A DNA stretch of 41,977 bases, taken from IMG/VR virus record IMGVR_UViG_3300024518_002084, positions 1 to 41,977 of that record. One strand, given 5' to 3'. A model generated the notes under the pieces. That model was not told the DNA's origin. It was given only the letters and a program-made list of their open reading frames with translations, and did not search any database. The position numbers and the translations under genes are program-made. This stretch comes from a virus. Shown piece after piece: positions 2,642 to 14,530 of the stretch. Every line of letters starts with the position of its first letter. The first letter of the stretch is position 1.

Positions 2642-3469
2642 ATGTTCCTATCCACACCCCCAGAATTTTATCATGTGACTGATGAAATCGTTTCTGCCTT
2701 GTATGAGCATGGTGGTATCGAAGATCCTTTAGATCTAGCGTGCAACGAAGCCGCTATCTTAAAAGGCCCGACTTCTTCAGCACTTGGGATAAAAAAGGGT
2801 ACGAAGCTGACACTCTGCAGAGATAGTCAGGCTTTTGGCATAACTGGCCGCAATGCGGAGCAACGTTTAGCTATGAATCTTCTGGCTGATACGTCTATCC
2901 CAATAGTTAGTCTGGGAGGTATGGCCGGGACTGGTAAGTCTATTCTAGCTATTGCCGCTGGGCTTGATGCTGTCATCGAAGAGAAGCAGTTTAAGCGTGT
3001 CGTTGTATTTCGTCCGCTTCATGCTCTCGGCGGCGAAGATCTTGGCTTTCTACCGGGTGACTTCGATGAGAAGATGGACCCTTGGCGTCAAGCCGTCTGG
3101 GACGCTCTAGATGCCTTCTGTGACGACACGGTGCGTAACTACATAGCAGACCATGACATCCTTGAGGTCATGCCTCTAACGCATCTGAGGGGCCGTACAC
3201 TGTCTGATTCCTACATTATCGTTGATGAGGCTCAGAACCTTACGTTACCTACTCTGGTGACTGCCCTAACTCGGGTGGGCGAGGGATCGAAAGTTGTTCT
3301 GACGCATGATGTAAACCAGAGAGACAACGCTTCAGTTGGTCGTCTTGACGGAGTGCTGACGGTGGTTGAGCGGTTGTTCGGTGATCCTCTGTTTGCTCAC
3401 ATGGTTCTACATAAGGTGGAACGTTCTGCTGTTGCGAAACTGGTGGGAGAGAAGTTTCAGGATCTATAA
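2642..3469 (+). CDS. phoH: PhoH-like ATPase, 275 aa
   Basis: A P-loop NTPase of the PhoH/YlaK type, a common phage auxiliary protein whose exact role is not settled (RNA or phosphate-stress metabolism has been proposed). Walker A GMAGTGKS is at residues 93-100, followed by the family signature RPLHALGGEDLGFLPGD (PhoH proteins have RPxxxxGxxLGxLPG), and Walker B YIIVDEAQN. The C-terminal VVLTHDVNQRD resembles the family's GDxxQ region. The start could instead be TTG at 2627; ATG 2642 is preferred. TACAAT (2622-2627) may be its -10. Its last 221 bases are also coding on the other strand. Confidence 0.9.
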   Translation: MFLSTPPEFYHVTDEIVSALYEHGGIEDPLDLACNEAAILKGPTSSALGIKKGTKLTLCRDSQAFGITGRNAEQRLAMNLLADTSIPIVSLGGMAGTGKSILAIAAGLDAVIEEKQFKRVVVFRPLHALGGEDLGFLPGDFDEKMDPWRQAVWDALDAFCDDTVRNYIADHDILEVMPLTHLRGRTLSDSYIIVDEAQNLTLPTLVTALTRVGEGSKVVLTHDVNQRDNASVGRLDGVLTVVERLFGDPLFAHMVLHKVERSAVAKLVGEKFQDL

Positions 3470-4067
3470 CCCAGTATTCTCTTCCCATCCAGCGGGCTGT
3501 TCCATCAGTAATCTGATTTACTAGTTGCCATACCCCGTCCCAGTCTGGGACTCGGGTGGCTTCTGTGATGTGACGATTGTAGGGTTGATCGAAAAGGATG
3601 CAGGGGATACCTGCTGCCACGGAGTCTGCCCAGTTGTCGGGAGAGTCTTCCACGAGCAGGTCAACTTTTACAATAGTTTTGTCACGCACGAAGTGCATGG
3701 CATCTACTTCGATGCAGTAGGATGAGAGCCAATCGGCGGTAAGCTGAGGGGCACGACTGCTGTTGCGGTGCGTGATGACGTGTACGTTGATGTCTAGCTC
3801 TCGACGCAACCTATTGACAACGTTGCTGTAGCCAGCGGCTGGGAGATCTACGAATCCAGCGGCTGGGCCGAACATGTCGTCTTGGCCTTCTTCGATGTGC
3901 GCAAGGAACTCTTGTAGTTCGAATCCGAAGTCTTCAAAGAAGCTCCAGTGTTGAGGCACGTACCCTTCGGGGATCACAGACCCTTTATGGAGATTAATCC
4001 ACGTCAGGTAGCGATCAACGAAGGGGTATGCACATCCGTCCAAGTCTAGACCGATAGTAAATGTCAT
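3249..4067 (-). CDS. HAD-superfamily 5'(3')-deoxyribonucleotidase-like protein, 272 aa
   Basis: HAD motif I is DLDG at residues 8-11, motif II is ITHR with T99, the motif III lysine is near 134 (TIVKV), and motif IV is VEDSPDNW (E140-D141). This matches NT5C-type nucleotidases, which dephosphorylate deoxynucleoside monophosphates. The HAD fold ends near residue 195. Residues 200-272 are encoded antisense to the end of the PhoH gene, have no domain and look low-complexity (PPVSQQQNVPPY, QPPSALRQDD). The start overlaps the thyX stop (ATGA), giving a coupled minus-strand operon with ThyX, so a role in nucleotide pools fits. Confidence 0.85.
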   Translation of the reverse strand: MTFTIGLDLDGCAYPFVDRYLTWINLHKGSVIPEGYVPQHWSFFEDFGFELQEFLAHIEEGQDDMFGPAAGFVDLPAAGYSNVVNRLRRELDINVHVITHRNSSRAPQLTADWLSSYCIEVDAMHFVRDKTIVKVDLLVEDSPDNWADSVAAGIPCILFDQPYNRHITEATRVPDWDGVWQLVNQITDGTARWMGREYWVIDPETSLPPVSQQQNVPPYVEPCEQTEDHRTTAQPPSALRQDDQLKRCLSGLHHASEQLSIPRPPELGQSPE

Positions 4068-4906
4068 AGGGTTGACGACTCCACCCAGTCATGGCGTAGT
4101 TGCTGCCAGTAGGCGAAGTTGCCTAGCGGACTCCACAGACTGTTCGCTGGGATAGGACGGGCTACGTGCTCTAGTGGTGATGAGTGGGGAGGATCGGCTG
4201 AAACAAGCTTCTCGAAAAGAGCGATGTCCTCTGCCGGGTCACGCACTCCATCATGGGTCAGATACGATACTCGTGCACATCGTGCCACTGAGACCTTGAT
4301 CTGGTCTTGTAGGTCTAGTGAGCGTTCGTCACCTGTGATGTACGGTAGATGCCATTCGTCCTCTGAGAGCATCGTGGGATCCGACAGGCGGTACGCATCA
4401 CGTATGGCGGTAGCCGCTGCACGCATCTCAGGTTGCGCTAGAGGGGAGCAACGCTGTGTGAAGAAGTTCTCCCACTCGGTGGATGATACGATCACCTTGT
4501 GCCACATGAACGGCTCTAGGAGTCGATTGGTGACCTGCTTGTGAACACCCAGATTGTCAAGCTCGGTTGCATACTCGACGGCAGCCATAGTGGCCTCAGT
4601 CCAGATAGCTTCTGCCTTCTCGGCGTCTTCGCCACTGAGCGTTTCTTCAGCTTGCATTCCGGGCTGGTTAATGCCGAACTCGAATGGAGTGGCGGGATCT
4701 TCCATGACTCGGAGTGTCTGCTTGTGTACGGGGATAGCCCGAGAGGAAGCGGAGTTGCGTGAAAATGCTCTGTGCGTATTGAACTCTGCGAGCACAAAGC
4801 GATGCATGGTAGCTTCGATCGTTGTGAGTCGATAGCCGTCTTCTGAGACGGAATCGCAAATTATCTTCGCATTTGGTTCAGTGATTATCCATCCGTCTTC
4901 ACTCAT
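4064..4906 (-). CDS. thyX: flavin-dependent thymidylate synthase ThyX, 280 aa
   Basis: Makes dTMP from dUMP using methylene-tetrahydrofolate, FAD and NADPH. The ThyX signature is present as THRAFSRNSASSR (residues 44-56), matching HRxxSxNxxSxR; the first Arg of the usual RHR is Thr. Other family features are FFTQRCSPLAQPEMR and VARCARVSY. I use ATG 4906 (MSEDGW) rather than the upstream ATG at 4924: it has GGAG eight bases upstream and overlaps the previous stop as ATGAGTGA. The gene is coupled by ATGA to the nucleotidase-like gene downstream. Confidence 0.95.
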   Translation of the reverse strand: MSEDGWIITEPNAKIICDSVSEDGYRLTTIEATMHRFVLAEFNTHRAFSRNSASSRAIPVHKQTLRVMEDPATPFEFGINQPGMQAEETLSGEDAEKAEAIWTEATMAAVEYATELDNLGVHKQVTNRLLEPFMWHKVIVSSTEWENFFTQRCSPLAQPEMRAAATAIRDAYRLSDPTMLSEDEWHLPYITGDERSLDLQDQIKVSVARCARVSYLTHDGVRDPAEDIALFEKLVSADPPHSSPLEHVARPIPANSLWSPLGNFAYWQQLRHDWVESSTL

Positions 4907-5255
4907 CGTCAGTCTCCAAAACAATTGTTGCGTCTACGTGCGCCCATCCTTCTTTGATGAGCTTTACTGCCAGCTCAGTGTGTCGGCCTGACAGGGCCGT
5001 TGCAAGATCGGAGCGTGTCTCGATCTTGCCTCCACCGAGGAGAGCCTCTAGGTTCCGATAAGGAATACCTTCAGCTCGGCCTTTGGCCGTGATCTGAATG
5101 GTTGCACGGGATGGCTCTGTGACGGGGATTCCCGTCAGATGCTCGGTGGCTTTCTCTTGCAGTTTCATCTTTGCTGCTCCGGGGAGAGTCCCGTTAGTAG
5201 CGAGAGCTACCATTTCAGCGTTCGTTAGTCCTAGTGCTTCGACTAGATTACTCAC
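4899..5255 (-). CDS. hypothetical protein, 118 aa
   Basis: I take GTG at 5255 as the start: it overlaps the previous stop as GTGAGTAA, the same 8-base geometry that links this gene to thyX, and CGGAGA lies upstream. A longer frame from ATG 5309 would add 18 residues inside the upstream gene. The protein begins SNLVEALGLTNAEMVALATNG and has a central charged segment ending LLGGGKIETRSDLATALSGRH. No family recognised; it is helical and probably cytoplasmic. Position suggests an operon partner of ThyX. Confidence 0.7.
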   Translation of the reverse strand: MSNLVEALGLTNAEMVALATNGTLPGAAKMKLQEKATEHLTGIPVTEPSRATIQITAKGRAEGIPYRNLEALLGGGKIETRSDLATALSGRHTELAVKLIKEGWAHVDATIVLETDDE

Positions 5256-5535
5256 TGTCAATCTCCGACTCTTGTGGTGTGGCTTCCATTGATTCCAGTA
5301 TATCATCAAATCCGAGTTCTGTCAACTGGCGTGTGATGAGTCCGTCCATTGCCTCGTCCGTAGCAACGCACAGGGCGATAAGCTCGGGGCTGGTTCGTGG
5401 GAGCGTGTGCTCTTTACCTAGTTGATCTCGTAGGCGTACCGTAGTGCCTCCACCGAGTGATTGTATGCGGCTAACCTCAGCAGACCAGATGTATCCGGTC
5501 TGCTTGCTTTGCCTATTCTGTGCCCGTTTACTCAT
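5248..5535 (-). CDS. hypothetical protein, 95 aa, first gene of the minus-strand thyX operon
   Basis: ATG at 5535 preceded by AAAGGG. The N-terminus is basic (MSKRAQNRQSKQTGY), then a beta-like part (VSRIQSLGGGTTVRLRDQLGKEHTLP) and an acidic C-terminus (ESMEATPQESEIDSE). No recognised domain. It heads a four-gene minus-strand run ending with the nucleotidase-like gene at 3249, all joined by 4- or 8-base overlaps. Its promoter must lie in the divergent gap 5536-5610, which contains an A/T-rich TATTATAAA on the minus strand. Confidence 0.7.
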   Translation of the reverse strand: MSKRAQNRQSKQTGYIWSAEVSRIQSLGGGTTVRLRDQLGKEHTLPRTSPELIALCVATDEAMDGLITRQLTELGFDDILESMEATPQESEIDSE

Positions 5536-5544
5536 GACGCCCTT

Positions 5545-5582
5545 TATAATAGTGGTTTAAGTGGTCATAACCTGCCGTTAGG
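5545..5582 (+). promoter_or_regulatory. TATAAT followed by GCCGTTAGG element in divergent gap
   Basis: A perfect TATAAT is at 5545-5550 on + with no clear -35, and GCCGTTAGG is at 5574-5582, 28 bases before the ATG at 5611. A loose TTTA lies 14 bases before GCCG. A short hairpin, GGTAA/TTACC, follows. The gap separates the minus-strand thyX operon from the + strand endolysin pair. Confidence 0.45.
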
Positions 5583-5610
5583 TAAATAGAGTTACCATTA
5601 GGAGTAGATT

Positions 5611-5802
5611 ATGAGTGATGCTGAGAAGCCGCTAACTGAAGATCCAGAAGACCTTCTTGAAATGTGCGACGATTCGTTCGACATTGAAGAGATGAATACC
5701 TCTACAGATGATGCTATCACAGGTATGGTCCTCTTTGCAAACGCAACCGATGATGACGATCTCGAAGAGATTGCCGAGTTCTGGAAGGGACTAGACAAAT
5801 GA
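5611..5802 (+). CDS. small acidic hypothetical protein, 63 aa
   Basis: ATG at 5611 with AGGAG six bases upstream. The protein is very acidic (EDPEDLLEMCDDSFDIEE, DDDDLEEIAEFW) and probably all helical. It overlaps the endolysin start by four bases (ATGA), so the two are likely co-translated; it has no membrane segment and so is not an obvious holin. An acidic inhibitor or DNA-mimic role is possible but not supported by any motif. Confidence 0.7.
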   Translation: MSDAEKPLTEDPEDLLEMCDDSFDIEEMNTSTDDAITGMVLFANATDDDDLEEIAEFWKGLDK

Positions 5803-6701
5803 GTAGAGATACGGGCATAGCTAACAGGCTTCGTAATGCCGGTCTTCACGTTGTGGAGATCGCTGGCTGGCAGACTGGTGGGTCGAGTTCATTCTACCCT
5901 CAGGGTTCTGTTGACCATCACACTGCTGGAGCAACCAGCGGTAATGCACCTTCGCTAAATATTTGTATAAACGGACGGGCTGGTCTGAGCGGGCCTCTTT
6001 GTAACGTTCTGATCGGACGTGACAATACGTGTTACGTTATCGCTGCTGGCCGTGCCAACCACGCTGGCCGTGGTAGCTGGTACGGCCTTTCTGGCAACTC
6101 TAGCGTCTACGGTATTGAACGTGAGAATACTGGCTATGCCACTGGTCCTCGTGCAGAACCGTGGAGAGACGACCAGCATCTTGCCGCTGGTGTGGCACAT
6201 GCTGCCCTCATGGAAGGTAAAAATGCTAATTTTGTTTGTCGTCACGCTGAATGGACGCCACGCAAGATTGACACCCATTCCATAGATGGCAACGATCTCC
6301 GTGATCTAGTGCATGCCATTCAGGAGAAGAAGAGTGCCCCTGCGGCACCTAAGCCTCCTCCGGCTGTGCAGAATCCTTTTAAGCCGCCAAGCAAGCCGAA
6401 GCCAGAAGCACCTGTTGCTCCTAGTGGACCGCTTACTCCCAAGCAGTTCCTTGAGAATGTTGCTGCTGCCGCTAAGGGCCGTCCGGTCTTGAAGCTAGGC
6501 AAGCAGGGTGCTTGGGTTCGTGATCTTCAGGGACAACTAAACCGAGCGTTTGGTGAGAAGGTCGTTGAAGAAGACGGTAAATACGGACACAAGACGTTCA
6601 ACATCGTCAAGTGGTACCAAGAAGTCATGGGCCTGAAGGTCGATGGCGTCGTTGGTTATCAGACGTGGGCTAGCGTTATCGCTAAAGCGATAACTGGCTA
6701 A
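5799..6701 (+). CDS. endolysin: N-acetylmuramoyl-L-alanine amidase with peptidoglycan-binding domain, 300 aa
   Basis: Residues about 15-175 form an Amidase_2/PGRP domain that cleaves the lactyl-amide bond between MurNAc and the stem peptide. Likely zinc ligands are the His of VDHHTAG (40-41), H149 (CRHAEW) and D158. A Pro/Ala-rich linker (about 178-212) leads to a PG_binding_1 domain (about 225-298) with the hallmark DGKYGHKTFNIVKWYQ...DGVVGYQTW. The segment GWQTGGSSSFYPQGSVDHH is typical of actinobacteriophage endolysins. No signal peptide, so a holin is needed; the candidate lies 8 kb away at 14808. Overlaps the previous gene by ATGA. Confidence 0.95.
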   Translation: MSRDTGIANRLRNAGLHVVEIAGWQTGGSSSFYPQGSVDHHTAGATSGNAPSLNICINGRAGLSGPLCNVLIGRDNTCYVIAAGRANHAGRGSWYGLSGNSSVYGIERENTGYATGPRAEPWRDDQHLAAGVAHAALMEGKNANFVCRHAEWTPRKIDTHSIDGNDLRDLVHAIQEKKSAPAAPKPPPAVQNPFKPPSKPKPEAPVAPSGPLTPKQFLENVAAAAKGRPVLKLGKQGAWVRDLQGQLNRAFGEKVVEEDGKYGHKTFNIVKWYQEVMGLKVDGVVGYQTWASVIAKAITG

Positions 6702-6702
6702 T

Positions 6703-7047
6703 GTGGATGGTCCACTAGGCGTGGAACTTTACTGCAATGAATGTGGGGCCGTGGGATTTGGCTTTGCATCTTTGGTCCCATGTATGCATGATTATGATGC
6801 GTACAGTGTCATGATGACAGGTTTAGGGGATGACATGCCTTTTGGCGTTAACGACGATCCGGTATCAGTAGTTCATCGGTTGGGTGAGGATCAACTTTAC
6901 CTCACATATTGTGATGGTAGTGTTTTGTACCAAGTCCGGTTACCGAAGAACTATTACCCTATCCCCATCAATGATGAGAGTGTTAACTGGGATCTGACTC
7001 TCGGAGTCGGCGTGCCTCGTCGGCTGCCGCCTTCTGCTCTGCGGTAG
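6703..7047 (+). CDS. hypothetical protein with CxxC motif, 114 aa
   Basis: The only usable start is GTG at 6703, one base after the endolysin stop, with no clear Shine-Dalgarno. Residues 11-14 are CNEC, with a further Cys at CMHD near 28, so a partial zinc ribbon is possible. The middle is beta-rich (QLYLTYCDGSVLYQVRL). Its last 65 bases are antisense to the end of the gene at 6983-7237. Function unknown. Confidence 0.5.
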   Translation: MDGPLGVELYCNECGAVGFGFASLVPCMHDYDAYSVMMTGLGDDMPFGVNDDPVSVVHRLGEDQLYLTYCDGSVLYQVRLPKNYYPIPINDESVNWDLTLGVGVPRRLPPSALR

Positions 7048-7237
7048 GCGGTTTGGCAGTGACGGTAGGACTACCGATCATGCTGTCGTTCTGAACCTGC
7101 ATGGTACGAGTCTGCGTTTCCTGAAAGCAGTCTTCGCACAGGTTCGCTATCCGAGATTCGTGTACCGTTGGGCCAAACCCTTCGCCACAGTTAACACATG
7201 AATCATCCTCGTAAGGATCTTCAAAATACTCGCTCAT
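6983..7237 (-). CDS. small zinc-binding-like protein, 84 aa
   Basis: Residues 14-17 are CVNC and about 34-37 are CEDC, a four-Cys zinc-ribbon layout. The C-terminal half is charged and helical (AEQKAAADEARRLRES). The start overlaps the upstream stop by ATGA. It is the last of four coupled minus-strand genes headed by the metallophosphoesterase. Target unknown. Confidence 0.7.
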   Translation of the reverse strand: MSEYFEDPYEDDSCVNCGEGFGPTVHESRIANLCEDCFQETQTRTMQVQNDSMIGSPTVTAKPPTAEQKAAADEARRLRESDPS

Positions 7238-7545
7238 GTCAATTTCATCCCTGACTTCGGTAGCTCACCGTCCGTAACGGCAATGTAAGTGTACTTTCTA
7301 CTAACATAGCACGTTTCGTCTGAACCTTGCAACTCGACCACTTCACCTGAGGCATCGTAGGTGGATACGGTTAGGTCCGCAGGGATATCTATGGGAGCAT
7401 AGGTGCCGTCTTCTTTGACTATCAGCACTCCGTCGCAATCGGTGGGAGAAGACACGTCTTCTATGTCCGTAGATACGGCAAACTCTAAGGTGTGGCCGCT
7501 CTGGAATTCAACGTCGATTGCATTACGGTTCAGTGGAGTAGACAC
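7234..7545 (-). CDS. hypothetical protein, 103 aa
   Basis: GTG start at 7545 inside the end of the upstream gene (23-base overlap), with AAGGAC upstream. The product looks all-beta (DVEFQSGHTLEFAVS, ADLTVSTYDASGEVVEL, YVSRKYTYIAVTDGE), without membrane segment or known motif. It is coupled downstream by ATGA to the zinc-ribbon gene. Confidence 0.65.
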   Translation of the reverse strand: MSTPLNRNAIDVEFQSGHTLEFAVSTDIEDVSSPTDCDGVLIVKEDGTYAPIDIPADLTVSTYDASGEVVELQGSDETCYVSRKYTYIAVTDGELPKSGMKLT

Positions 7546-7828
7546 AGAAGATGTCCTTCTTGACAGAACTTACGGGTTCTTGATAAACAACGCACTGATC
7601 GTCAGTGGAAATCAAGAGATAGTTCGAAGGAAGTCTTGGTGCTGACTCAGATGTGGCTAGTAGCCAGTCTCTGGACGCTACTCTACATTCGCATAAATGC
7701 TTCTGTCCGAAGAAGAGATCTACGCCACAGGATAGGCAATATGCGAACAGAACTGGTTCGCTGTCGTCTTCATAGGAAGCCATATTGAATATATCCTCTG
7801 TGACTGTTTCTTCAGAGATCATTGCCAT
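7523..7828 (-). CDS. hypothetical protein with Cys motifs, 101 aa
   Basis: Starts ATGGCAATG at 7828, inside the end of the metallophosphoesterase gene (17-base overlap); the second ATG at 7822 is an alternative. CLSC near residues 31-34 and CEC near 46-48 could form a zinc site. The rest has no recognised family. Third gene type with paired CxxC motifs in this operon. Confidence 0.6.
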   Translation of the reverse strand: MAMISEETVTEDIFNMASYEDDSEPVLFAYCLSCGVDLFFGQKHLCECRVASRDWLLATSESAPRLPSNYLLISTDDQCVVYQEPVSSVKKDIFCVYSTEP

Positions 7829-9143
7829 CTACATCTACATTCGCAGAGAATTCCATTCCCCTGAAGATAGCTTGCCCGTCATTGACGATAATCGGCTCAA
7901 CCATGTGACGGCATTCTCCGTCAGGCTCAGAATAGATAACCAACATACCCTGCGTCCATCTCTCGTTAGCCAGCATTTTACCTGAAGGCTGAATGGTTCC
8001 AGTGGTTGAAGGGACCATACCGTCTAAACGGCTTAGAGTGCCTCCTGAGGCCCCTACGATGGTACGCATGCCGGTAGCTGTGCGTACACGGTCATATGCT
8101 ACCGCTTGGTAGTGGTCGTGACCGTAGATGACGGATACGCCGGGGGCTTGTCCGATGGACTTGCCAGCGGCTCCACCGGGAACACCGGAAGTTGCTGTAC
8201 CGTGTACGAATTTGAGGAACTCGTTGTGCCAGAACACACCTTGCGGATAGTTGTGACTGTATTCGATGTTGTTGTCATCATATCCACACAGGAAAGGGAT
8301 TGACAGGACCGGCTCGTCGGAACCAACCTGAGTGAGTCCCATGAGTTGTGGTGCCTTGTCGGCAATGAACTTCTCTATGCGAGCCTCATGGTTGCCAAAG
8401 AGTTGCACAATGCGAGCATCAGGGGTAATAGCCCGCTGCTGAGTGTGATGGCTCTTGTGACGGCTTAGGTTCTCGTTCAGAAGATTCAGGTAACCGGGGG
8501 TTGACCTGTGGCTGGAGAACTCTGCGAAGTCAAGGTCATCGCCCTGATTCACTACAACATCCACGCCCTCTGACTGCTCAAGGAAGGCGATTATCTGCAT
8601 ACAGACATCAATGGCGGCTTCATCGTGGATCGGGTGCATTGTCCCATCTGTTCCACGGAAGAATCCCATTTGCGTATCAGGAAGAGAGATAACTAATTCG
8701 TATCCTGCCGGTTTAGCTGTGCCGCTCTTAACCTTCGGCTTATATACATTCAGTGGTCGGGCTTCGACCTCGAACGATTCGGTTGCTAGAGTGGGAATAA
8801 AGTCAATGGTGTGGCGTGTTGAACTGGTAGGCAGCTCTACGTCTTCGCCGTCCTGCTTACGCCAGACAGTACCTTCACTCTGGACAGACTTCACTGCCTT
8901 GACTGTACCGTGTTGCTGAGCGGTCTCTATGACCTCACCCAGATCACTCATGTCAGCTTCTACAGTGACACGAGTGGTACTCCAATAACGTTGGCCGAAC
9001 CGGGCTAGCGTTTCCCTCTTGGGAGCTGTTATCCCCTTAGAATTCAAATGTTTTACGATATCTGCTGCTCGCAGACCTTCGCTCCACATAGATTCCATTA
9101 AATCCCTATCGGGATGGTCTGCTACGCCTTTAGGAGTGCCCAT
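7812..9143 (-). CDS. calcineurin-like metallophosphoesterase with N-terminal HTH-like segment, 443 aa
   Basis: All metal-binding motifs of the family are present (numbering from ATG 9143): DTQ at 156-158 (in place of DxH), GDDLD at 201-205, GNHE at 250-253, FVHG with H315, and GHDH at 341-344. Such enzymes hydrolyse phosphodiesters or phosphomonoesters with two metal ions; Mre11/SbcD-type nuclease or general phosphatase activity are both possible. Residues about 10-55 (DLMESMWSEGLRAADIVKHL...) look like a helix-turn-helix. The frame is open to 9242, but the promoter at 9205-9233 puts the transcript start near 9198, so the upstream ATGs are excluded. No clear Shine-Dalgarno precedes 9143, so the start is uncertain. 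Confidence 0.85.
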   Translation of the reverse strand: MGTPKGVADHPDRDLMESMWSEGLRAADIVKHLNSKGITAPKRETLARFGQRYWSTTRVTVEADMSDLGEVIETAQQHGTVKAVKSVQSEGTVWRKQDGEDVELPTSSTRHTIDFIPTLATESFEVEARPLNVYKPKVKSGTAKPAGYELVISLPDTQMGFFRGTDGTMHPIHDEAAIDVCMQIIAFLEQSEGVDVVVNQGDDLDFAEFSSHRSTPGYLNLLNENLSRHKSHHTQQRAITPDARIVQLFGNHEARIEKFIADKAPQLMGLTQVGSDEPVLSIPFLCGYDDNNIEYSHNYPQGVFWHNEFLKFVHGTATSGVPGGAAGKSIGQAPGVSVIYGHDHYQAVAYDRVRTATGMRTIVGASGGTLSRLDGMVPSTTGTIQPSGKMLANERWTQGMLVIYSEPDGECRHMVEPIIVNDGQAIFRGMEFSANVDVDGNDL

Positions 9144-9204
9144 ACATTCATGCCGATCTATAGATTTACTAACCTTACGTCGCCTTCGACGTGTGCAATG
9201 AACC

Positions 9205-9233
9205 ATTCTACCATGTATTAGCTCACGTTCCAA
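9205..9233 (-). promoter_or_regulatory. minus-strand promoter TTGGAA-N17-TAGAAT
   Basis: On the minus strand TTGGAA (9233-9228), 17 bases, then TAGAAT (9210-9205), preceded by TGG and followed by GG. This is the window's best-formed minus promoter and shares the TGnTAgAATGG core with the + strand promoters at 9678 and 39246. It drives the metallophosphoesterase operon. Confidence 0.65.
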
Positions 9234-9254
9234 ACAAATCACGTCGGGGAGAGT

Positions 9255-9625
9255 TATGTGAACCTTATGCCAGAAAAGGTAAGGTAGATAAGGTTGGGAT
9301 CGCTAATGGTTTTTCCCTATCGTCCTATAGTAGACGACGGACCCACTTACGAACTAGTGGGAAGAGTGTTGATCTTCTTTACAGGTAGCGTATTGGTCCC
9401 TATCACCTTCCGGTGAAATCTCTCCGCTCTTTAAGCCGAGCTAAGCCGCCCTACCGATTCCTCATCGGCCCGTTTCCAACTGCCCGCTTTCTCCAGTAGA
9501 GGAATCCTCTGGAGTTTTCTGGGGGGAACTGGATGGTCATCGTAGGATACGTTAGCGAGATTGCCCACAACCGTTCACATCTGCGTTTAATGTCATCCGG
9601 CCTTGCCGGGTAAGTTTCTGTTCTT
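9255..9625 (-). ncRNA. candidate structured RNA or long structured leader, hairpin-rich gap
   Basis: This gap between divergent genes holds no ORF of note but at least seven perfect stems: AACCTTAT/ATAAGGTT (9261-9295), TCGTC/GACGA (9320-9337), CCCACT/AGTGGG (9342-9361), TCACC/GGTGA (9403-9416), CCGAT/ATCGG (9454-9468), CTCCAG/CTGGAG (9491-9514) and CCGGC/GCCGG (9597-9609). On the minus strand the 9403-9416 loop is GGAA, a GNRA tetraloop, and a minus promoter (TGCTATACT) sits just upstream at 9640-9632, so minus is favoured. On + the last two stems are followed by T-rich runs and could be terminators, and a boxA-like CGCTCTTTAA lies at 9425-9434. I do not recognise it as RNase P, tmRNA or a B12 riboswitch. 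Confidence 0.45.
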
Positions 9626-9631
9626 AATGAA

Positions 9632-9640
9632 AGTATAGCA
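9632..9640 (-). promoter_or_regulatory. minus-strand extended -10 (TGCTATACT)
   Basis: Reverse complement of 9632-9640 reads TGCTATACT, identical to the + strand extended -10 at 24677. TTTCAA lies 17 bases upstream as a weak -35. Transcription would start near 9625 and run through the hairpin-rich gap toward the metallophosphoesterase. Confidence 0.5.
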
Positions 9641-9654
9641 TGGATTTGCTTACC

Positions 9655-9686
9655 TTGAAATCAAGAACGTATTTCTGTGTTAGAAT
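9655..9686 (+). promoter_or_regulatory. promoter of the sigma factor gene
   Basis: TTGAAA (9655-9660) and TAGAAT (9681-9686), preceded by TGT and followed by GG. The 20-base spacing is long, so the extended -10 probably carries most of the recognition. The start of transcription would fall near 9693, giving a leader of about 27 bases before the ATG at 9720. Confidence 0.55.
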
Positions 9687-9719
9687 GGTAACATAAGGCG
9701 CAATGATTGGATCATATAT

Positions 9720-10493
9720 ATGAAACGTAGACGCAGGGTCAACGAGAGTGCTGAGGACATGTGGCTTCGGTTTCAGTCTGGTGACGATTCGGCTTCGGAG
9801 GATTTGTTGCGTTACTATGAACCTTCGGTGAAGCATGTGGCTGAGCGTTTGGCGAAGGGTCTTCCTTCTCATGTGGATGTTGAGGATCTTTCAGCTATTG
9901 GGATGATGGGCTTGTATGATGCTATGTGCAGGTACGAGGATCGTGGTTACAAGTTTATCACGTATGCGAAGTTTCGTATCCGTGGCGCTATTCTGGACTA
10001 TCTCAGGTCTGTGGATCATGGGACTCGTTCGATGCGTAAGTCTGCTCGTGAGGTCAAGAAGGCTCGTTGGGAGTTGACTGGCGAGTTGGGTCGTATGCCT
10101 GCGGCCACCGATATCGCTGATTTCCTTGGGATCACGGTGGAGGAGTTCTATGAGATTGAGGCTGCGGAGGATCGTGCAGTCCATATCAGTATGTCTCCTT
10201 TGCCGGATAAGGATAACTCAAATATCGAAGTAACTTGGACTTCTATTGAGGATACGCTTGCGGATAAGCAGACTACGGTTGATCTGATGTCTGAGCTTGA
10301 GGATCCGATTGATCGTCTCAGCGACATTTTCGATACGTTGAACGAGCAGGAGCAGGCAGTGTTGTCTCTTTACTATCAGACTGATCTTTCTTTGAAGGAG
10401 ATTGGTAACCTGCTGGGTGTTACTGAGTCTCGGGCCTGTCAGGTCTACACTAAAACGTTGGATAAGATCCTCGTTCCGATGTCTTTGGGCTGA
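9720..10493 (+). CDS. RNA polymerase sigma factor, FliA/WhiG (sigma28) type, 257 aa
   Basis: Region 2 is at about 14-100, with FITYAKFRIRGAILDYLRS close to the FliA/WhiG hallmark TYAxxRIRGAILDxLR. Region 3 is at about 120-150 (ELGRMPAATDIADFLGI) and region 4 at about 210-252, with helix-turn-helix SLKEIGNLLGVTESRACQVY. It lacks region 1.1, as group 3 sigmas do. Such factors redirect host polymerase to TAAA-N15-GCCGATAA promoters. The recurrent GCCGTTAGG element before this phage's late genes resembles that -10, so this is probably the phage's own late-gene sigma. It has its own host-type promoter upstream. Confidence 0.93.
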   Translation: MKRRRRVNESAEDMWLRFQSGDDSASEDLLRYYEPSVKHVAERLAKGLPSHVDVEDLSAIGMMGLYDAMCRYEDRGYKFITYAKFRIRGAILDYLRSVDHGTRSMRKSAREVKKARWELTGELGRMPAATDIADFLGITVEEFYEIEAAEDRAVHISMSPLPDKDNSNIEVTWTSIEDTLADKQTTVDLMSELEDPIDRLSDIFDTLNEQEQAVLSLYYQTDLSLKEIGNLLGVTESRACQVYTKTLDKILVPMSLG

Positions 10494-11884: not shown

Positions 11885-11957
11885 TCTGGGGTAGCTCAAC
11901 TGGCAGAGCAGCGCACTGTTAATGCGAAGGTTGGAGGATCGTCCCCTCCCCTCAGAG
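11885..11957 (+). tRNA. tRNA-Asn (anticodon GTT)
   Basis: Full cloverleaf. Acceptor TCTGGGG/CCTCAGA with one G-T pair; D-arm GCTC-AACTGGCA-GAGC; anticodon stem GCGCA/TGCGA with one end mismatch and loop CTGTTAA; T-arm GGAGG-ATCGTCC-CCTCC; discriminator G. The T-loop is unusual: it lacks the normal TTC start. CCA is not encoded. The next gene's ATG comes three bases after the tRNA. Confidence 0.93.
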
Positions 11958-11960
11958 CCT

Positions 11961-12341: not shown

Positions 12342-12423
12342 GGGTCGGTTGAGCAATTGGCTGCTCAGGAGACTGTAACTCTCCCGCTTTCGAGCATTAT
12401 AGGTTCGAGTCCTATTCGGCCCA
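12342..12423 (+). tRNA. tRNA-Tyr (anticodon GTA)
   Basis: Acceptor GGGTCGG/TCGGCCC (two wobble pairs), D-arm GAGC-AATTGGCT-GCTC, anticodon stem GGAGA/TCTCC with loop CTGTAAC, and a long variable arm with a small GCT-TTCG-AGC hairpin, as bacterial tRNA-Tyr requires. T-arm ATAGG-TTCGAGT-CCTAT, discriminator A. CCA is not encoded (CG follows). Confidence 0.95.
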
Positions 12424-12437
12424 CGCAGAGAATACAG

Positions 12438-12517: not shown

Positions 12518-14530
12518 ATGAGTGATTTCCTAAGTTTCCGGTTCCCCGATTCGTTTATCGAACAGTATAAGGGTAAGAGTCCCGAGTGGCCCTTCCCTAT
12601 TGGTGGTGGGAACTCTCTAGGAGAGCTTATTTATGTGGACAAGTATTCCGCATTGAAGGAAGATGGGACCAAGGAGACTTGGAACGAGACCTGTCAACGT
12701 GTGGTTGAAGGTTACTACTCGATCCTGAAGGATCATTGTAAGGGTAACCGTACTCCGTGGAACGACATGAAGGCATTGGCCTCTGCTCGTGATGCGTATG
12801 ATCGCATGTTCCACCTGAAGTGGCTTCCACCGGGTCGTGGCATTCAGCACATGGGTCGCTCGATCATCCATGAGGAGCAGGACTCTTCAGCTTTGCAGAA
12901 CTGTAGCTTCGTGTCCACCAGCAAGCTGTCTACACATTCTTTCAGGTCCGCCACTGATCCTTTCCGTTTGATGATGGAGATGGCGATGACGGGTGTTGGT
13001 GTCGGCTTTGACACTAAGGGTGCTGGTCGTCTCACTCTACATGAGCCTACCGAAGAGGTTGAGCGATTCATCGTTCCCGATACTCGTGAAGGCTGGGCTG
13101 ATTCTATCGCCAGCCAGCTTGCAACATACTTCTTTAAGAACCGTGCAGGCATAGAGTTTGATTATGATGGTATCCGTCCCCTTGGTGCGCCTCTGAAGCG
13201 TTTCGGTGGCCGTGCTTCTGGCCCCGGTCCTCTGATCGAGCTTCATCGCACCATTAAGAGTCAGCTTGACGGACGAGCCGGTGAAGACATCACTTCTCGT
13301 GACATCCTCGACCTTATGAACAAGATCGGTAAGGCAGTACAGGCTGGTGGCTCTAGGCGTTCAGCACAGATTGCTTTCGGTACACCCGACGATGAGGATT
13401 ACCGTTCAGCGAAGAATTGGGAGCTTGAGAAGAACGCAGAGCGTACCCACAAAGAAACTGGGTGGGCGTGGAACTCCAACAACTCTGTGTTCGTGGATGA
13501 TGACACCGATCTCGGTGAACTCGTTGAGGACACTAAGGTTAACGGCGAACCGGGATTCATGTGGCTAGACTTGGCTCGTTCTCATGGTCGGATGATTGAT
13601 CCTCCGAATAATAAAGACTATCGTGTGGCTGGTGGCAATCCTTGCCTTGAGCAGTCGCTCGAAGATGGGGAACTTTGCACGCTTTGTGAAACTTTCCCTA
13701 CGAGGCATGAGGATTATGCCGATTACCGTGAGACTCTCAAGCATGCTTACCTGTATGGTAAAGCTGTGACCTTGCTTCCTACCCGTTGGCCTGAGTCCAA
13801 TGAGGTCATGGCTCGTAATCGCCGCATCGGCTGTTCGATGTCAGGTCTTGCTGAATTTGTTGAGACTAAGGGCTGGGCTGAAATTATCCATTGGATGGAT
13901 GAGGGCTACAAGTTCATTCAGCATCGTGACACTAAATATTCGGAGTGGCTCGCAGTACGTGAGAGTATTAAAACTACTTCCATAAAGCCTTCTGGTACCG
14001 TGTCCCTGCTTGCAGGTGTGACACCGGGTGTTCACTGGCCTGTCGCCACAGGGGACTACATTCGCCGTGTACGCTTCTCTAAGGGCAACCCCTTGGTGGA
14101 GGTCATCCGTGGGGCTGGCTATCACGTAGAGGACGCTGAGGGCGATCCTGACAACACTGTGGTGGTCACCTTCCTCACCCAGTCTCCAGACATGCGCAGC
14201 GAGCAAGAGGTCTCGATTTGGGAGAAGGCAGAGTTGGCTGTAGTTGCTCAGCGTTATTGGGCTGACAATCAGGTTTCTGCTACGATCACATTCGCACCGG
14301 ACGAGGCAGAACAAATTCTTCCTCTACTAGAATCCAAGTCTGGACAGTTCAAGGGTATTAGCTTTAATCATCTGTCTGCCGGGACTTATAGCCAGCAACC
14401 GTATGAGAAGCCATCACCACAATTCGTGAGCGGCTATCATCGCAAGGACCATCAGCGTATCGACTTGTACTCCGTTGGAGCCGATGCTATCGGGGATAAA
14501 TTCTGCGATAATGATAGCTGCGAGATTTGA
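12518..14530 (+). CDS. nrdJ: class II (B12-dependent) ribonucleoside-triphosphate reductase, 670 aa
   Basis: Reduces ribonucleotides to deoxyribonucleotides using adenosylcobalamin, as in the monomeric Lactobacillus leichmannii enzyme. The three active-site cysteines align: NCSF with C129, NPCLEQ with C376 (E378 beside it), and C387 in DGELCTLC; the 11-residue spacing of the last two matches C408/C419 of that enzyme. The substrate-loop signature IKPSGTVSLLAGVTPGVH is present. The C-terminus ends CDNDSCEI, giving the C663/C668 relay pair. At 670 aa it is shorter than the usual ~740. It is preceded by possible operator repeats. With ThyX it secures dNTP supply, but the host must provide B12. 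Confidence 0.95.
   Translation: MSDFLSFRFPDSFIEQYKGKSPEWPFPIGGGNSLGELIYVDKYSALKEDGTKETWNETCQRVVEGYYSILKDHCKGNRTPWNDMKALASARDAYDRMFHLKWLPPGRGIQHMGRSIIHEEQDSSALQNCSFVSTSKLSTHSFRSATDPFRLMMEMAMTGVGVGFDTKGAGRLTLHEPTEEVERFIVPDTREGWADSIASQLATYFFKNRAGIEFDYDGIRPLGAPLKRFGGRASGPGPLIELHRTIKSQLDGRAGEDITSRDILDLMNKIGKAVQAGGSRRSAQIAFGTPDDEDYRSAKNWELEKNAERTHKETGWAWNSNNSVFVDDDTDLGELVEDTKVNGEPGFMWLDLARSHGRMIDPPNNKDYRVAGGNPCLEQSLEDGELCTLCETFPTRHEDYADYRETLKHAYLYGKAVTLLPTRWPESNEVMARNRRIGCSMSGLAEFVETKGWAEIIHWMDEGYKFIQHRDTKYSEWLAVRESIKTTSIKPSGTVSLLAGVTPGVHWPVATGDYIRRVRFSKGNPLVEVIRGAGYHVEDAEGDPDNTVVVTFLTQSPDMRSEQEVSIWEKAELAVVAQRYWADNQVSATITFAPDEAEQILPLLESKSGQFKGISFNHLSAGTYSQQPYEKPSPQFVSGYHRKDHQRIDLYSVGADAIGDKFCDNDSCEI

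Follow-up and report, generated by a model that had tools for sequence, protein, structure and literature searches.

What occupies the largest non-coding gap of this phage genome, and does it encode a folded RNA? In the window, by which we mean the whole stretch of 41,977 nucleotides analysed here, a first-pass annotation had singled out positions 9255-9625, next to a sigma gene, as a hairpin-dense interval without coding potential and a possible new structured RNA. ORF lists, the list of gaps and synteny define the locus as follows:

7812..9143, minus strand: metallophosphoesterase (MPE) gene, assigned through PHROG 20266 (metallo-phosphoesterase) and alignments
9243..9719, no strand assigned: non-coding gap, the largest in the window, between the divergent MPE and sigma genes
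9720..10493, plus strand: gene for a sigma-70 family factor, with Pfam regions 2, 3 and 4 and PHROG 351

The gap beside the sigma gene is real, with MPE on the minus and sigma on the plus strand, and no ORF of more than 65 amino acids starts or lies inside 9255-9625. A coding reading was rejected, given the lack of an ORF and the indels between homologues, which are not multiples of three and break the frame; a replication origin was also considered and dropped, as GC-skew shows no change there. Comparison with relatives suggests MGTPKGVADHP as the start of the MPE protein. We read the gap as housing a new, lineage-restricted structured non-coding element, most likely an RNA read towards the sigma gene. 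Two further gaps in the window, 1718-1993 and 2279-2626 (276 and 348 bases), are likewise without an assigned gene.

How much of this can be read from the window's sequence by itself? The signals in and around the gap are these:

9205..9233, minus strand: promoter-like TTGGAA-17-TAGAAT, the sole scan site in 9100-9800, where 1.0 is expected by chance
9403..9416, minus strand: hairpin TCACC-TTCC-GGTGA, whose loop on this strand is GGAA (GNRA), from the hairpin list
9491..9514, plus strand: perfect 6-bp stem followed by TTTTCTG, terminator-like, from the hairpin list and terminator scan
9632..9640, minus strand: TGCTATACT, extended -10-like, seen in the sequence and not reported by the promoter scan

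Perfect Watson-Crick, non-overlapping hairpins with loops of 3-12 bases were counted and compared with dinucleotide shuffles. The interval 9255-9625 contains 7, against 2.5 +/- 1.35 in shuffles, a number reached by 0/500 shuffles in one run and about 2/300 in the other (2/800 together); the whole gap contains 10, against 3.4 (0/300 as high). The earlier count of at least seven stems of 5-8 pairs holds as to number, the stems being only 5-6 bp at these loop lengths, and the 8-bp stem AACCTTAT/ATAAGGTT in the interval is possible only with a 19-nt loop. Seven hairpins are also reached by 4.9% of window tiles of the same size. Folding energy is ordinary for the interval (z -0.26 on plus, -1.47 on minus), with z -0.08 and -2.33, respectively, for the gap 9243-9719, and better folding is seen in many other parts of the window. 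For a structured RNA in the window, the single-sequence evidence from hairpins and folding is no more than suggestive. The local features reported earlier were recovered in part: the GGAA tetraloop lies at 9403-9416 on minus, and the T-rich tails on plus correspond to two terminator-like sites, 9497-9511 and 9595-9611, where 0.6 are expected. The extended -10 read on minus at 9640-9632 is present as a motif and has no partner -35 in the promoter scan; the promoter-like site at 9205..9233 probably belongs to the MPE gene. The hairpins at 9403..9416 and 9491..9514 are candidates in the window sequence alone.

Comparison with other phages carries the argument further. Queried with the MPE and sigma proteins of the window, IMG/VR returned no close relatives. 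An alignment of two capsid sequences, one of them from Caudovirales GX15bay, led to 36 contigs, six of which carry the sigma gene, counting one (G008) that ends just before it. The order MPE, gap, sigma is kept in the other five (G003, G004, G009, G010 and G011), with gaps of roughly 490-1000 bases. L065 and L067 were added through a 21-mer of the conserved block described below, and L069 and L156 through sigma and MPE alignments; G010 and G011, near-identical in the gap (98.8%), were counted once, and L155 was left out of the count since its MPE gene has other neighbours. The MPE, gap and sigma side arrangement thus recurs in 8 other distinct phages, and is kept although their sigma proteins share only 37-45% identity with that of the window. 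The gaps of the window, L069 and L156 are hairpin-rich, and by the same measure those of the five relatives that share the block are not. In L156, about 800 bases (~3190-3990) lie between MPE and a 129-aa ORF adjoining sigma; this stretch has 13 hairpins against 6.6 in shuffles and folds well on minus (z -3.1). In G003 (locus L056), ~13501-13720 is strongly folded on plus, 13501-13660 reaching z -5.7, and includes the hairpin CUGCUUAGG...CCUAAGCAG.

Is any part of the window's gap itself conserved? Two features at its sigma-proximal side are shared with L069:

9536..9621, plus strand: conserved non-coding island, homologous to L069 ~1928-2013, found by nhmmer, blastn and local alignment
9595..9611, plus strand: hairpin AUCCGGC-CUU-GCCGGGU, terminator-like and followed by a T-rich stretch, from the alignment fold and terminator scan

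The island (86 nt) is matched by nhmmer at E 1.4e-4, reciprocally at 2.3e-4, with the L069 copy lying in the corresponding gap and sharing the strand, and by blastn over 39 nt at 82%; its local alignment score of 292 compares with 183 +/- 23 in shuffles (0/300 as high) and 166 for the opposite strand. No other part of the two gaps was matched by nhmmer, blastn or local alignment. With the remainder of the gap unmatched and the two sigma proteins only 44% identical, the island represents conservation of a non-coding stretch, and one- and two-base indels between the two copies exclude a shared reading frame. Within it, the hairpin at 9595-9611 has the L069 counterpart AUCGGGC-CUU-GCCCGGU, with seven pairs in both, one of the seven being compensatory (C-G in the window, G-C in L069). 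Its U-G pair would be C-A on minus, and the RNA from the window's island is probably the plus strand. Covariation for the window itself comes down to one compensated pair in one hairpin. Within the interval 9255-9625 put forward earlier, only the 3' quarter, some 86 nt, is demonstrably conserved.

The strongest indications of a folded RNA come from the corresponding gap of five relatives (G004, G009, G011, L065 and L067), which share a block of ~235 nt at ~80% or more DNA identity. Because RNAalifold yielded a stable consensus on neither strand, eight helices were named by eye on this block. They comprise a long-range AACG-CGG/CCG-CGUU, then UUCAUCUA/UAGAUGAA, and three hairpins inside the long-range pair; a 5' stem bearing a GCGC hairpin and one terminal hairpin complete the set. 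When the alignment is fitted to this structure, 191/192 cells are base-paired, five pairs are changed on both sides, the covariation score is reached by 0/500 shuffles, and sliding the helix partners lowers pairing to 31-47%; these figures are biased towards the structure, since its helices were named on the very sequences that were counted. Two hairpins are clear on their own through double changes, the first with UACG/CGUA beside UGCG/CGCA, UGGU/ACCA and UGAU/AUCA, the second with GCAG/CUGC beside ACAG/CUGU and GUAG/CUAC. A possible pseudoknot, AACUG/CAGUU, and a candidate long-range pair, GCUUAG/CUAAGC, hardly vary among the five. The GCUUAG/CUAAGC words, an invariant long-range pair in this RNA, also occur in the folded stretch of G003 mentioned above.

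On which strand would this RNA lie? The helices of the five relatives, which show compensatory changes, pair better on plus. Read on the opposite strand, the same helices pair in 178/192 cells, a lower count because G-U pairs turn into C-A mismatches. A TANNNT box lies 6-8 nt upstream of the conserved GCUUAG in 5/5 relatives on the sigma strand, with a -35-like hexamer at 16-nt spacing upstream of it, again in 5/5; promoter-like sites were called by consensus only. The G-U pairs and the promoter-like site at a fixed distance point to an RNA on the sigma strand. The minus strand, to which the clues of the earlier reader leaned, fares worse in the relatives (178/192 against 191/192, with the promoter-like site on plus); for the window it is probably the less likely strand. 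The only four-base loops listed for the window and L069 (GGAA and GAGA) are GNRA on minus, which may count as a small point for the strand favoured earlier. The proposal of a structured RNA is partly supported, by compensatory changes in the gap of the five relatives and by the island shared with L069, with one compensated pair in the window itself.

Is the window's element the same RNA? The covariance model of the five relatives (R1) describes an RNA family placed between MPE and sigma genes and scores the relatives themselves at 268-283 bits; against the window its best score is -0.1 bits with filters off, and it finds no match in the gaps of L069, G003 and L156. An nhmmer search with the five-relative profile found nothing in the window's gap, the only link made by nhmmer being that between the window and L069. 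Homology between the window and the five relatives was accordingly rejected at the level of sequence (local alignment P 0.03-0.87, nothing from nhmmer and the covariance model), as were the gaps of G003 and L156 as homologues of the window's (no sequence link in local alignment or nhmmer). The window's element may still be the same RNA as that of the five relatives, through common descent.

We propose, tentatively and at somewhat less than even confidence, that a structured RNA element belonging to this phage lineage lies in the gap and is read towards sigma on the plus strand, where it would serve sigma as an extended, folded 5' leader. Transcription would run from the gap towards the sigma gene, with the RNA heading the sigma transcript, or that of a small operon ending in sigma, and the RNA would set the amount and timing of sigma production; the element probably helps to control the sigma gene. 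This reading is drawn from the relatives, in which the RNA lies on the same strand as sigma, at a constant position, with a promoter-like site at its start and no terminator: no clear U-rich terminator was found behind the RNA in the five, and conserved sequence goes on towards sigma beyond it. For the window, a folded sigma-ward leader, its transcription and its regulation of sigma are extrapolated from them. Counting against a leader are the failure of R1 to detect the window, L069, G003 and L156, the ordinary folding energy, and the GNRA tetraloops on minus. Should the leader exist, it would place RNA control on the phage's own transcription programme.

Could the RNA instead act on its own? 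In L069, a putative HNH-endonuclease-like ORF (2093-2461) and two small ORFs separate the conserved element and its gap from sigma, and in L156 the 129-aa ORF does so; the element is thus not always a direct sigma leader, which weakens the leader reading and leaves room for a free-standing small RNA. Such an RNA would start from a promoter of its own within the gap, on either strand, and would have targets in trans such as RNA polymerase, a protein or other mRNAs. The promoter-like site ahead of the RNA in each of the five relatives would suit it, as would the hairpin with a T-rich tail at which the window's island ends; the lack of a convincing terminator in the five relatives and the conserved sequence running on towards sigma speak against it, and we regard it as unlikely, if worth serious consideration. 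We also speculate, with slightly less conviction still, that the window, L069 and the five relatives carry strongly diverged versions of a new, fast-evolving, pseudoknotted phage RNA class, fixed between MPE and sigma throughout a whole phage lineage, which would control sigma or the host RNA polymerase and time or sense infection.

How does the element relate to known RNAs? Rfam 15 (4227 families, among them GOLLD, ROOL, 6S, group I/II introns, RNase P and tmRNA; gathering cut-off) matches only a tRNA elsewhere in the window and nothing in the gap, a permissive search of 8900-9900 gave one chance match, and the relatives' loci L039, L040, L041 and L044 (with sigma) gave two chance matches below the cut-off. 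The earlier impression that no known class is recognisable is thereby upheld for the window's and the relatives' gaps alike. The tRNAs of the window are tRNA-Asn (gtt) at 11885-11959, found by ARAGORN and Rfam, and tRNA-Tyr (gta) at 12342-12424, found by ARAGORN only. GenBank phages hold nothing similar to the window's gap, and neither they nor plasmids yielded homologues beyond short chance matches. A 19-mer of the relatives' RNA matches two bacterial contigs, in which the covariance model found nothing. The relatives' GGAACGUCCGGGC resembles a conserved strand of RNase P, an idea set aside for want of an Rfam match. GOLLD and ROOL are large ornate RNAs, some of them in phages (PMC12286853). 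The element resembles them as a structured non-coding RNA in phage genomes, and nothing matched the giant RNAs of this type that had been raised as a comparison. The relatives' RNA, at ~235 nt, is also far smaller than GOLLD and ROOL. With structured 5' leaders (riboswitches, attenuators and autoregulatory leaders), it shares the strand of the downstream gene, a promoter-like site where the RNA begins, and a folded stretch, some hundreds of bases long, ahead of the start codon; unlike them, it matches no known leader family, and genes intervene in L069 and L156. The 6S RNA is similar in size range and in having a neighbour tied to RNA polymerase, but the relatives' structure is branched, with a possible pseudoknot, and has no Rfam match. 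6S RNA folds into a single long stem interrupted by a central bubble. Phage structured RNAs are little catalogued. The relatives' RNA has a defined position beside a sigma gene, a secondary structure supported in five genomes and a candidate promoter; absent from Rfam, it could become a family.

Might the hairpins and the island be operator sites in DNA? A control region of two divergent promoters would fit the location between divergent genes and the symmetric ACTGTCG...CGACAGT repeat over the relatives' MPE promoter, which is probably an operator, and symmetric changes in a palindrome would also mimic compensation. The relatives pair better on one strand (191 vs 178 of 192, through G-U pairs) and have long-range helices, however, and the loop and flanks of the window hairpin are asymmetric; we find this explanation distinctly improbable. 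A plain spacer, with hairpins partly due to chance and the window itself lacking a conserved RNA, would account for the equally hairpin-dense tiles, the ordinary folding energy and the missing R1 match, but is the least probable of all given that the gap is the window's largest and that its island recurs in L069 in matching place and strand (0/300 shuffles).

Two observations on the relatives may be added. The MPE-proximal end of the gap in L041, L044, L040, L065 and L067 holds a conserved TTAACA-like/TANTNT promoter of the MPE gene. In L067, a ribonucleotide reductase ORF (4345-7467) is broken, as judged by eye, by a long intein-like insert that starts with CVTADTW and ends with VHAFDANGLMAHNC.
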